Shown here: piece after piece, positions 11,086-13,403 of the stretch
How positions within the stretch are numbered: the first letter of the stretch is position 1
How the letters are laid out: the number at the start of each line of letters is the position of its first letter
Assembly: GCA_022846035.1 (NCBI GenBank)
Contig: AP025580.1
Span: 2,666,001 to 2,730,000 of the forward strand
Origin: Christensenellaceae bacterium
Lineage (GTDB): Bacteria > Bacillota > Clostridia > Christensenellales > Christensenellaceae
Length of the DNA: 64,000 bases
Direction: 5' to 3'
Position numbers and translations under genes: made by a program
Notes under the pieces: generated by a model
Database searches by the model: none
The model's input: only the letters and a program-made list of their open reading frames with translations
What the model was told of the DNA's origin: nothing

Positions 11086-12750
11086 TTATTTTTCCCAGTC
11101 CAGGATGATATTGTCAAACGTCTTGCCGCCCGGCACCATAGGCAGCACATTTTCATCCTCGCTGATGTCGCACTGCACGATCACCGGCCCCTTGTGCGCG
11201 AACGCTTTTTTAAAGGCGCCAACCATGTCCTTTTCATTCGTGATGTCCACGCCATAGGCGCCGAACGCTTCCGCCAGCTTCACATAATCGGTCGGGCGGT
11301 TCAGCGTGGTCTGTGAATAACGCCCGTCGAACATGATTTTCTGCCATTGACGCACCATACCCAGCACGTTGTTGTTCATCACCAATACCATGATTGGAAG
11401 TTGATGTTTTACCGCGGTTACGATCTCCTGCAAATTCATATGGAAGCTGCCGTCACCGGCGATGTTCACGACCTGTCTCCCCGTGCCTATCGCCGCGCCC
11501 ATCGCCGCACCCATGCCAAAGCCCATTGTCCCGAGGCCGCCGGATGTGATAAATTGCCGCGGCTGCTCGATCTTCAAAAACTGTGCCGACCACATCTGGT
11601 GCTGGCCTACTTCCGTCGTAAAGATAGTGCCTTCCGGCGCCGCTTCCTGCATCGCCTGGATCACTTTCTTGGGGAACCTTGCGTTTTTTGTCGCCCGATC
11701 CAGCGGATATTTGGTTTTCCATGCCTGCGCCTGCTCAAGCCATGTTTTGTCAGTTTTTTGTTTTACCTTGGGCAGCAACGCGTCCAAAACCGCTTTCGCG
11801 TCGCCCATTACTTCATAATCCGCCGTGATGTTCTTGTTGATCTCCGCCGGATCGATATCGATATGCAGCACCTTTGCCTGCTTTGCAAATTTCATACGGT
11901 CGGAGGTCACACGTTCGGAAAAACGCGCGCCGATTGTGATCAGCAAATCGCAGTGTGTCGTGCACAGCGCCGATGCTTTCGTGCCATGCATGCCGATCAT
12001 TCCGGTATATTGCTCACAGTCTGCCGGATATGCCCCTAAGCCCATCAGCGTCATCGTAACAGGCGCATTCAGTTTTTTCGCCAATTTACGCAGGCTCTGC
12101 TCCGCCTGCGATGCGATCACGCCGCCTCCCGCCATGATAAACGGCTTTTTGCTATCGTTTAACGCCTGGGCGGCGGCGGCGATGTCCGCCGCGCTGAAAC
12201 GGTTGGGGCGCACGATCGCTTTTGGCTTTTCAGGCGTATATTCACACGACTCTACCGTTACGTCTTTGGTAATATCCACCAGCACCGGCCCCGGCCGACC
12301 GCTTTGCGCGATAAAGAACGCCTCGCGGATCGTTTTTGCCAGGTCCTCTATCTTTTGCACGATTACATTGTGCTTGGTAATTGGAATCGTCACGCCCGTA
12401 ATGTCAATTTCCTGGAAGCTGTCTTTCCCGAGATTTTTTTGTTCCACGTTGCCCGTGATCGCAACCAGGGGAACGGAATCCATATACGCTGTCGCAATAC
12501 CTGTCACCAGGTTGGTTGCTCCCGGGCCGCTCGTCGCAATTACCACGCCTGGTTTCCCCGTCGCGCGTGCGTATCCGTCTGCTGCATGCGCAGCGTGCTG
12601 TTCATGGCAAGTCAGAACATGATTGATCTCCGGATAATGATAAAGCGCATCATAAATCGGTATGACGGTCCCGCCCGGAAATCCGAAAACCGTATCCACC
12701 TGCTGTTCTTTTAAACATTCCATTACGATCTGTGCGCCACTGAGCTTCAC
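11086..12750 (-). CDS. ilvB: Acetolactate synthase large (catalytic) subunit
   Basis: The protein has about 554 residues. GTG at 12750 is chosen because GGAGG lies eight bases upstream and MKLSGAQIVMECLKEQ is the family N-terminus; a TTG at 12765 would overlap the binding site. The ThDP-activating glutamate is E50 in CHEQHAAHAADGYARATG. FAD-region and ThDP/Mg motifs follow, including NIAGDGSFHMNLQEI and VMNNNVLGMVRQWQ. It condenses pyruvate to acetolactate, or pyruvate with 2-oxobutyrate to acetohydroxybutyrate, the first common step for valine, leucine and isoleucine. It is the first structural gene of the operon and sits behind the leader-peptide attenuator. Confidence 0.95.
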   Translation of the reverse strand: MKLSGAQIVMECLKEQQVDTVFGFPGGTVIPIYDALYHYPEINHVLTCHEQHAAHAADGYARATGKPGVVIATSGPGATNLVTGIATAYMDSVPLVAITGNVEQKNLGKDSFQEIDITGVTIPITKHNVIVQKIEDLAKTIREAFFIAQSGRPGPVLVDITKDVTVESCEYTPEKPKAIVRPNRFSAADIAAAAQALNDSKKPFIMAGGGVIASQAEQSLRKLAKKLNAPVTMTLMGLGAYPADCEQYTGMIGMHGTKASALCTTHCDLLITIGARFSERVTSDRMKFAKQAKVLHIDIDPAEINKNITADYEVMGDAKAVLDALLPKVKQKTDKTWLEQAQAWKTKYPLDRATKNARFPKKVIQAMQEAAPEGTIFTTEVGQHQMWSAQFLKIEQPRQFITSGGLGTMGFGMGAAMGAAIGTGRQVVNIAGDGSFHMNLQEIVTAVKHQLPIMVLVMNNNVLGMVRQWQKIMFDGRYSQTTLNRPTDYVKLAEAFGAYGVDITNEKDMVGAFKKAFAHKGPVIVQCDISEDENVLPMVPGGKTFDNIILDWEK

Positions 12751-12807
12751 TTCATTGTCCTCCAACGTTCTTAATTATCTTACGGCTTCTCCTCGCCGCG
12801 TTTACCT

Positions 12808-12842
12808 AATAAAAAAGGCCTGCGCTTATTTGCGCAGGCCTT
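12808..12842 (-). terminator. Attenuator terminator of the ilv operon
   Basis: An 11-bp perfect stem (AAGGCCTGCGC with GCGCAGGCCTT) is followed on the minus strand by six T. It lies between the leader peptide and ilvB. Its 5' arm and loop (12824-12834) can instead pair with 12888-12897 inside the leader-peptide frame. Confidence 0.88.
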
Positions 12843-12897
12843 GAATTACTTCTTAACTCAGTCCTTACTCATGCCCTCCGGCACAACCGCAATAAGC
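12824..12897 (-). promoter_or_regulatory. Candidate antiterminator pairing of the ilv leader
   Basis: In the transcript, GCUUAUUGCG (12897-12888, within codons 27-30 of the leader peptide) is complementary to CGCAAAUAAGC (12834-12824, terminator 5' arm and loop) with one bulged A. Forming this helix would break the terminator. The pairing was found by eye and no folding energy was computed. Confidence 0.55.
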
Positions 12898-12978
12898 CTT
12901 ATTCGCTCCGTTAATAATGACGAGGCTAATAAGGTTAATAAGGACGACGATGAAATTGTAAGATTGTTTATGATTCAT
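12865..12978 (-). CDS. ilv operon leader peptide (37 residues, Ile/Val/Leu rich)
   Basis: ATG at 12978 opens a 37-codon frame ending TAA at 12865. Residues 9-22 read FIVVLINLISLVII: eleven of the thirteen residues 10-22 are Ile, Val or Leu (5 Ile, 3 Val, 3 Leu), with no Thr. The frame lies between a consensus promoter and a strong terminator, with ilvB beyond. This is the layout of a ribosome-stalling leader: scarcity of charged branched-chain tRNAs would stall the ribosome in the run and free the downstream antiterminator strand. The ribosome binding site is weak (AAGTAAGAGAA). The C-terminal part carries CGCAGGHE. A small membrane peptide is the alternative reading, but the position argues for a leader. 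Confidence 0.75.
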   Translation of the reverse strand: MNHKQSYNFIVVLINLISLVIINGANKAYCGCAGGHE

Positions 12979-13009
12979 TTCTCTTACTTCTTTCGCATTT
13001 ATGTTATTT

Positions 13010-13038
13010 ATGATAAATGCAGCTAACCTTAATGTCAA
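13010..13038 (-). promoter_or_regulatory. Promoter of the ilv-leu operon
   Basis: A perfect -35 TTGACA (13038-13033), a 17-base spacer and -10 TATCAT (13015-13010) lie about 30 bases upstream of the leader-peptide ATG. A T-box or CodY-type box was not recognised. Confidence 0.8.
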
Positions 13039-13138: not shown

Positions 13139-13213
13139 GCCTCCGTAGTTAAACGGATATAACAAGCCCCTCCTAAGGGCTAGTTATCGGTTCGATTCCG
13201 GTCGGGGGTACCA
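13139..13213 (+). tRNA. tRNA-Arg (anticodon CCU), CCA encoded
   Basis: A full cloverleaf can be drawn: acceptor GCCTCCG with CGGGGGT (G-U pairs at ends 1 and 4), D-arm GTTA/TAAC, anticodon stem AGCCC/GGGCT with loop CTCCTAA, T-arm ATCGG/CCGGT with loop TTCGATT, discriminator A and genomic CCA. Anticodon CCU reads the rare arginine codon AGG. It is a single gene between divergent transcription units, followed by a strong terminator. Confidence 0.93.
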
Positions 13214-13253: not shown

Positions 13254-13403
13254 GTGAATTACTGTTGTCAGGAGCGGCGGTTGCGATTATAATTGTTATC
13301 ATAGTCATCCTCAAAAAGAGAATGGCTGAGAGTGATGTTTGACAGCGGTTTTTGAATCGTTAGGCGTGAAGTGTAACCCATATATACGAAAGGAGATCGA
13401 TTT

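Follow-up and report, generated by a model that had tools for sequence, protein, structure and literature searches.

A predicted Ile/Val/Leu leader-peptide attenuator upstream of ilvB in a Christensenellaceae bacterium and its relatives

The ilv-leu operon and the region upstream of ilvB

The window analysed here is a stretch of 64,000 nucleotides (64 kb), and carries on its reverse strand (12750-2796) an operon of eight genes, each of which scores above the cut-off of an NCBIfam equivalog model. In order, these are ilvB (acetolactate synthase large subunit, 12750-11086; TIGR00118, 717 bits against a cut-off of 538), ilvN (acetolactate synthase small subunit, 11024-10524; TIGR00119), ilvC (ketol-acid reductoisomerase, 10460-9465; TIGR00465), ilvD (dihydroxy-acid dehydratase, 9452-7803; TIGR00110), leuA (2-isopropylmalate synthase, 7769-6264; TIGR00973), cimA (citramalate synthase, 6244-4655; TIGR00977, 691.7 bits against a cut-off of 450), leuC (3-isopropylmalate dehydratase large subunit, 4565-3303; TIGR02083) and leuD (3-isopropylmalate dehydratase small subunit, 3287-2796; TIGR02084). 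The start of ilvB is most likely the GTG at 12750 rather than the TTG at 12765, because a GGAGG (12763-12759) sits 8 nt upstream of it. The start of cimA was set at an ATG, residue 47 of the longest frame (from 6382), because the profile begins at residue 50. These genes serve the synthesis of exactly isoleucine, valine and leucine. The operon has leuA, leuC and leuD together with cimA, the enzyme of the citramalate route to isoleucine, and no leuB was seen among the listed frames.

A consensus promoter had been claimed in an earlier sequence-only reading of this DNA, and a sigma-70-type promoter, TTGACA-17 nt-TATCAT, does lie upstream at 13038-13010 (reverse strand), with a match to 11 of 12 consensus positions. 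It is followed on the same strand by a frame of 37 codons plus stop (12978-12865; ATG at 12978, stop codon at 12867-12865), which encodes the 37-residue peptide MNHKQSYNFIVVLINLISLVIINGANKAYCGCAGGHE and has homologues in eight other genomes. The same reading had counted eleven Ile, Val or Leu among thirteen consecutive residues, and this was borne out: residues 10-22 (I V V L I N L I S L V I I; codons at 12951-12913, with a bias to ATT, CTT and GTC) hold five Ile, three Val and three Leu, and the remainder of the peptide holds none. Among the window's 894 frames that reach 20 aa or more, three have a density of at least 11 such residues per 13: the one in which the leader lies (58 aa when counted from the earliest start) and two others of 181 and 235 aa. 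This density occurs in none of 11,737 frames of 20-80 aa from ten dinucleotide-shuffled windows. The Ile/Val/Leu run of the leader frame is beyond chance.

The leader start codon lies in the loop of a weak 5' hairpin (GUAAGA/UCUUAC, 12987-12958, reverse strand; -6.6 kcal/mol, 54 nt folded). The start-codon region of the other eight leaders folds at -4.1 to -10.2 kcal/mol with different stems. In several of the nine genomes the start codon lies in or near such a weak hairpin, which might slow initiation. Six of the leaders have the motif AAGGA ahead of the start codon; in the window and in its nearest relative this reads AAAGA.

An intrinsic terminator hairpin follows the frame (12842-12815, reverse strand, with a T run to 12811) and is found in all nine leaders. 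It has 11 pairs, 8 of them G-C, and a 6-nt loop. It had been described as an 11-bp stem with T6; the hairpin stands, but two T of the T6 pair with the AA at the foot of the stem, and the element is properly either 11 bp with T4 or 9 bp with T6. The leader transcript up to the end of the terminator is about 190 nt long and mostly occupied by the frame. About 60 nt separate the terminator from ilvB, and nothing else lies between the leader frame and ilvB. The leader thus holds two things expected of an attenuator: a short frame, predicted to be translated, with regulatory codons for the operon's own products, and an intrinsic terminator between it and the first gene.

The alternative pairing proposed in the earlier reading also exists. 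Region 2 (GCUUAUUGCG, 12897-12888, reverse strand as for all elements here) lies inside the frame and forms the 5' arm of an antiterminator, pairing with region 3 (12834-12824), which comprises the top of the terminator 5' arm and the loop, in 10 pairs with one bulged A. The scheme as first drawn was correct but incomplete, as further elements are present. Region 1 (CCUUAUU, 12934-12928) pairs with AAUAAGG (12903-12897) to form a 1:2 stem; an outer stem joins GUCCUU in codons 12-13 (12945-12940) to AAGGAC (12866-12861), which overlaps the stop codon; and a hairpin UUGUGCC/GGCAUGA (12886-12869) follows region 2, and is absent from the leader L089. An A+U-rich hairpin GAGUUA/UAAUUC (12859-12843) precedes the terminator in the six genomes of the window's genus only. 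Folding of 12750-13005, which the sequence-only reading had suggested, gave an energy z-score of -4.58 against 200 shuffles.

We note that a tRNA-Arg(CCT) gene at 13139-13213 (forward strand) is divergent from the operon. The block TTGCAA...TATATTAGAAT upstream of it looks like the tRNA's own promoter, and is shared by the window with the relatives L083, L084, L085 and L087. Between the tRNA and the next frame lies a 25-aa frame (13265-13342, forward strand), LSGAAVAIIIVIIVILKKRMAESDV, with 10 Ile/Val/Leu in 13 residues.

Conservation of the leader frame and its RNA pairings

IlvB was searched for in 61 genomes (the window's own and 60 relatives), of which 29 gave a match at E ≤ 1e-100. The same leader occurs upstream of ilvB in nine genomes from three genera, the window's included. 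Within the family, 11 of 18 genomes have a matching IlvB and nine of these eleven carry the leader; in the other two (G010 and G016) the IlvB has about 51% identity and the upstream sequence is different. The best IlvB matches in a collection of named organisms, which may omit near relatives, have 48-57% identity. A profile search with the peptide in all 18 family genomes found the nine at E ≤ 1.2e-17; matches in four further family genomes (E 0.23-0.6) and extra matches in some of the nine (E 0.12-0.79) were taken as noise. In a 396-genome sample of the order, the profile found the same nine plus two weak matches (G288 and G318, E about 0.004-0.005), which were dropped, having no ilv gene nearby and, for G318, containing a stop. 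In a 398-genome sample of the phylum it found the window's own leader only. The G318 match (L130), from another family, lies in a stretch with an apparent aspartokinase gene.

The sequence-only reading would have been abandoned had the homologous regions kept neither the short frame nor its Ile/Val/Leu run. Frame, run, promoter, antiterminator pairing and terminator are all kept in the nine genomes. The -35 TTGACA is identical in every leader, and by inspection a -10-like hexamer follows 17 nt later in eight of the nine, L089 having TATAAT at 15 nt. The length difference inside the Ile/Val/Leu run is of one whole codon (L088 and L107). Residues 2-7 and the tail after C32 are variable, and the sequence K-A-x-C-G-C near the C-terminus is kept in eight of nine, in RNA that is paired (1:2 stem, region 2 and the next hairpin). 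On the 3' side of the terminator the leader sequences diverge.

Codon choice within the leader is conserved to a greater degree than in the gene it precedes. At residues identical to those of the window, the same codon is used at frequencies of 0.65-1.00 in the leaders, against 0.44-0.72 in the corresponding ilvB genes (p lies between 1.9e-7 and 0.022 for seven of the comparisons and is 0.13 for L107). The preferred codons are CTT/CTC for Leu (26/28 in leaders, 77/308 in ilvB), GTC/GTT for Val (24/29 against 107/368) and ATT for Ile (33/43 against 84/351); these counts come from related sequences, which the tests treat as independent, and the bias is partly forced by RNA pairing (AUU). CTY and GTY codons are usually read by tRNA-Leu(GAG) and tRNA-Val(GAC). 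In the stretches around the Rfam tRNA matches of the window's own genome, one of five Leu tRNAs is tRNA-Leu(GAG) and one of three Val tRNAs is tRNA-Val(GAC), so that the leader may report on these particular isoacceptors.

It is conceivable that the frame is instead the gene of a small functional membrane peptide which the terminator merely follows. The Ile/Val/Leu run could span a membrane, the frame has its own promoter, and its reading frame is kept. However, the synonymous codons are unusually conserved and fit RNA pairing, the C-terminal K-A-x-C-G-C lies in RNA that is paired, residues 2-7 and the tail after C32 vary, and the frame is separated from ilvB only by the terminator and about 60 nt. 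We therefore consider this explanation very unlikely, though of the alternatives to an attenuator it fares best.

RNAalifold, run on the nine leaders with no structure supplied, yields the 1:2 stem (alignment columns 21-27 with 52-58), the hairpin after region 2 and the terminator. The terminator and the hairpin each contain three pairs in which both partners have changed, six in all, and a count over the named structures (terminator, hairpin and outer stem) gives seven. The covariation of these named structures was reached by none of 500 shuffles on four of five measures, and by 91 of 500 on the fifth (pair types). The predicted terminator is well supported by covariation across these leaders. 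The outer stem is paired in 81.5% of cells of the MAFFT alignment and, by hand alignment, in eight of nine leaders, with one U-A to C-G change. The 1:2 stem is paired in all nine, and its variation, from U-A to U-G only, proves nothing.

The antiterminator is also paired in all nine leaders. When the six distinct leaders are aligned by hand, 61 of 62 cells pair; in the MAFFT alignment 97.8% of 90 cells are paired, against 29-55% when the arms are slid by 1-3 columns. Its variation is mostly one-sided (G-U), and the sole two-sided change and an inserted G-C pair are both in L089, the most diverged leader. For the window sequence alone, the pairing is not significant, being matched by 31 of 200 shuffles and 199 of 2000 synonymous recodings. 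Such controls are weak for single leaders in general, whether for the 2:3 pairing (17 to 419 of 2000 recodings and 9 to 44 of 200 shuffles) or the 1:2 stem (32 to 1423 of 2000 recodings), because much of region 2 is already fixed by the amino acids that the tail encodes. The support for the antiterminator is therefore comparative. It is mutually exclusive with the terminator and has its 5' strand within the frame, as expected of an attenuator, with covariation that rests on one diverged leader and is often reached in controls (57 of 500 shuffles, 120 of 720 permutations). The antiterminator thus appears conserved and plausible, with fewer supporting changes than the terminator.

Predicted ribosome-mediated attenuation

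Taken together, these analyses indicate that the operon ilvBNCD-leuA-cimA-leuCD is very probably controlled by ribosome-mediated transcription attenuation through its Ile/Val/Leu leader. Translation-coupled attenuation by these amino acids had been proposed from the sequence; the conserved parts in nine genomes, their covariation and a modelled map of ribosome stalling support it. For the cell we infer the following sequence of steps, together with a response to each of the three amino acids and silence of an untranslated leader. RNA polymerase would start at the promoter at 13038-13010, and a ribosome would follow on the leader frame. With ample charged Ile-, Val- and Leu-tRNA, the ribosome would pass codons 10-22 and cover region 2 as polymerase makes region 3 and the remaining terminator sequence; the hairpin could then fold and end transcription some 60 nt short of ilvB. 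A shortage of any one of these charged tRNAs would stall the ribosome within codons 9-24, where it would block the outer-stem strand in codons 12-13 and, further along, region 1. Region 2 would then be free to pair with the emerging top of the terminator 5' arm and loop, and polymerase would read on. If the leader were not translated at all, the outer and 1:2 stems together would hold region 2, and the terminator would form.

The stalling was modelled by folding the nascent RNA for each ribosome position, with RNA taken as exposed from 12 nt downstream of the first base of the A-site codon, an offset assumed from general knowledge. For the window leader the model gives 7-10 expected 2:3 pairs when the A-site is at codons 9-24, and at most 0.4 elsewhere. 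These 16 codons contain all 11 regulatory codons. A control region has been defined in this way, and a high share of regulatory codons in it, here 11/16, is described as raising sensitivity (PMC1183508). A wider count, of any leader base before the stop against the whole terminator 5' arm and loop, is less clear-cut for the window leader, with 10 pairs at codons 9-24 but also 3-5 at earlier codons and as many as 6 at later ones. The modelled 2:3 pairing has a similar upper limit, at codons 23-26, in the other eight leaders. Its lower limit, at codon 8 or 9, is well defined in four (L082, L083, L084 and L087). In the other five (L085, L086, L088, L089 and L107), the modelled untranslated nascent RNA also forms the 2:3 pairs in large part, and silence without translation is therefore not a uniform prediction. 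Within the range of pairing there are dips, to 2.3-2.7 pairs at codons 18-19 in L084 and to 4.9 at codon 18 in L107. In the model of the window leader the outer and 1:2 stems hold region 2 at positions before codon 9, and beyond codon 24 the ribosome covers it. The outer stem seems to be the decisive part, because the change at codon 9 comes before the ribosome has covered region 1.

Equilibrium folds of the complete RNA favour the terminator at every ribosome position in eight of the nine leaders, the exception being L089. The switch must therefore be kinetic, with the antiterminator forming first, which is the usual way in which antiterminators prevail in such switches. The antiterminator leaves about 8 bp at the foot of the terminator stem uncovered. 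Region 2 and the stop codon are 20 nt apart in the window genome, and a ribosome resting on the stop may therefore not cover region 2.

The conserved hairpins besides the terminator could be taken to mean that the leader RNA binds a ligand or protein, as a riboswitch or repressor site, and controls the terminator in that way, the frame being incidental. The frame is nevertheless maintained: where its length differs, it does so by a whole codon, and the run of cognate amino acids is conserved. Moreover, across the 64 kb only a tRNA reached the Rfam gathering threshold and no described leader family did, and CodY (PF06018) was over its cut-off in none of 61 genomes. The window's genome gave no CodY hit at all and two order-mates gave weak matches below the cut-off, with positive results for the Bacillus subtilis and Lactococcus lactis controls. 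Control by a binding RNA is on this evidence very improbable, slightly more so than a membrane peptide.

The sequence-only reading had noted the lack of a T-box, and the Rfam scan agrees, with no match to RF00230 in the window; nor was a T-box found in any of four leader loci scanned (L082, L088, L089 and L107). T-boxes are present nearby in the order: among ilvB loci of order-mates that lack the leader, 5 of the 16 scanned have one over the gathering score (L090, L091, L095, L098 and L105; the scan left out L103, L108-L111 and five leader loci). The window's own genome has T-boxes elsewhere (L255-L258). Those that precede a hisS-like gene and trpB exceed the Rfam gathering cut-off, and those that precede glyS and ileS score far below it, the gene names being our reading of the proteins. 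A T-box too diverged for Rfam, sensing uncharged tRNA directly, might draw on this company, but with no match in the window or in the four loci scanned, and a transcript of some 190 nt filled mostly by the frame, it can practically be dismissed.

Known attenuators and other ilvB leaders of the class

An attenuator read by translation is of a kind already known. Those of the ilv operons of Escherichia coli have a peptide of similar length, rich in branched-chain amino acids (BCAA), with several kinds of regulatory codon and a different gene order. The earlier reading had placed such attenuators in proteobacteria and actinobacteria, with ilv and leu genes in Firmicutes usually under T-box or CodY control. 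It was right in that we find no T-box at the locus; nor did we find CodY in the genome. Peptide attenuators of ilv-leu operons are already known in Firmicutes, having been described in Staphylococcus aureus (PMC5794164) and Listeria monocytogenes (PMC5864092) and predicted in L. lactis and streptococci (cited in PMC5794164 and PMC6123439). One account also speaks of a leader of 32 aa that contains 11 BCAA (PMC6123439). T-box control of BCAA synthesis is reported for Bacillales and Clostridia, and as absent from staphylococci, Listeria and several streptococci (PMC2494555); the last three are lineages in which peptide attenuators are documented or predicted (PMC5794164, PMC5864092, PMC6123439).

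The S. aureus leader, as described, resembles the present one in being a Firmicute peptide leader with terminator and antiterminator before a BCAA operon without a T-box, but there ilvD is first, the peptide is rich in Leu with three Ile, and CodY acts too (PMC5794164). The present operon begins with ilvB, its leader is rich in each of Ile, Val and Leu, and the genome gave no CodY match. Rli60 of L. monocytogenes is likewise presented as a ribosome-mediated ilv-leu attenuator with alternative terminator and antiterminator, and differs in its 13-aa peptide, the presence of CodY and ilvD as first gene (PMC5864092). Leaders before ilvB-II or ilvBNC in Corynebacterium, likened here by description, also have a regulatory frame before ilvB, but belong to Actinobacteria (PMC10272879, PMC11857589). 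The Veillonella ilvD and Leptospira ilvB motifs, again likened by description, are conserved RNAs before an ilv gene from other lineages, and were proposed as weak riboswitch candidates (PMC8632094). Histidine leader peptides offer a further parallel, as they replace T-boxes in Firmicutes, including Eubacteriales, but for histidine rather than BCAA and in other lineages (PMC2965389, PMC9413887). The replacement of T-boxes in Firmicutes by regular leader peptides was described by Naville and Gautheret (PMC2965389), and histidine attenuators in Eubacteriales are reported in PMC9413887.

A literature search that lay mostly outside subscription journals found neither this leader described nor any BCAA leader peptide reported from the lineage. 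With a T-box before ilvB in some neighbours within the order and a leader-peptide frame here, the locus represents a likely and testable regulatory swap. The leader also marks a short coding sequence that is easily overlooked in annotation, and is a regulator to consider when the BCAA output of such bacteria is studied.

We then surveyed 107 ilvB upstream regions of the class (80 + 27 loci, one of them too short to use). IlvB was found in 170 of 293 genomes, and the survey drew on a part of these; the others among the matches listed were mostly further members of genera already taken. A loose sequence pattern, which misses variants visible by eye (L210 and L243), gave T-box motifs in at least 13 of the 107 regions. 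A scan for leaders flagged four regions, one of which (L228) was a false positive in which the terminator follows an apparent tRNA gene; a further region, L207, was missed by the scan because loop length was limited, and was seen by inspection.

Two further Ile/Val/Leu leaders were recognised in the class. The leader of family f65 (MSDLSVIIIINLVLALTV...) is present in two genomes and, diverged, in a third, from 11 genomes searched in its order; the loci (L265, L266 and L267; MSDLSVIIIINLVLALTVIELLG... and relatives) come from one genus and have the terminator directly before ilvB. The leader of family f76 (MISMFYVIIGLVVLQLAVGVSF...) is present in five of 28 genomes searched in its order, from two genera (L260-L264), has a tail like GVSFNVHRAG, and stands before ilvB in four of the five. 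The fifth, L263, reaches its contig end about 144 nt past the frame, and neither ilvB nor a good terminator was seen in it. Seven of the eight frames of f65 and f76 are thus directly before ilvB, and in these seven the frame can pair with the terminator 5' arm and loop, in f76 through the 3' part of the leader. In the model a ribosome that has reached the frame's side of this pairing abolishes it, with a clean loss in most of the seven and a gradual one in L260. Unlike in the window leader, the untranslated RNA forms these pairs in all seven (5-15 expected pairs), and no protecting stem is therefore recognised in them.

A profile comparison of the f65 and f76 peptides with the window peptide gave no relation (probabilities 0.6% and 1.3%), a result to be read in the light of the fact that short hydrophobic peptides can hardly be tested in this way. 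Three apparently unrelated Ile/Val/Leu leaders before ilvB suggest repeated invention, and it is this apparent repetition, rather than the kind of attenuator, that is modestly surprising. Together these leaders also suggest that attenuators of this kind evolve with ease, as had been put forward for histidine leaders (PMC2965389). A wider proposal, which we hold to be evenly balanced between right and wrong, is that at least three such inventions in the class, each with its own peptide and antiterminator geometry, would have replaced the ilvB T-box while T-boxes were kept for other amino acids, with CTY, GTY and ATT codons tuning the leaders to particular isoacceptors.
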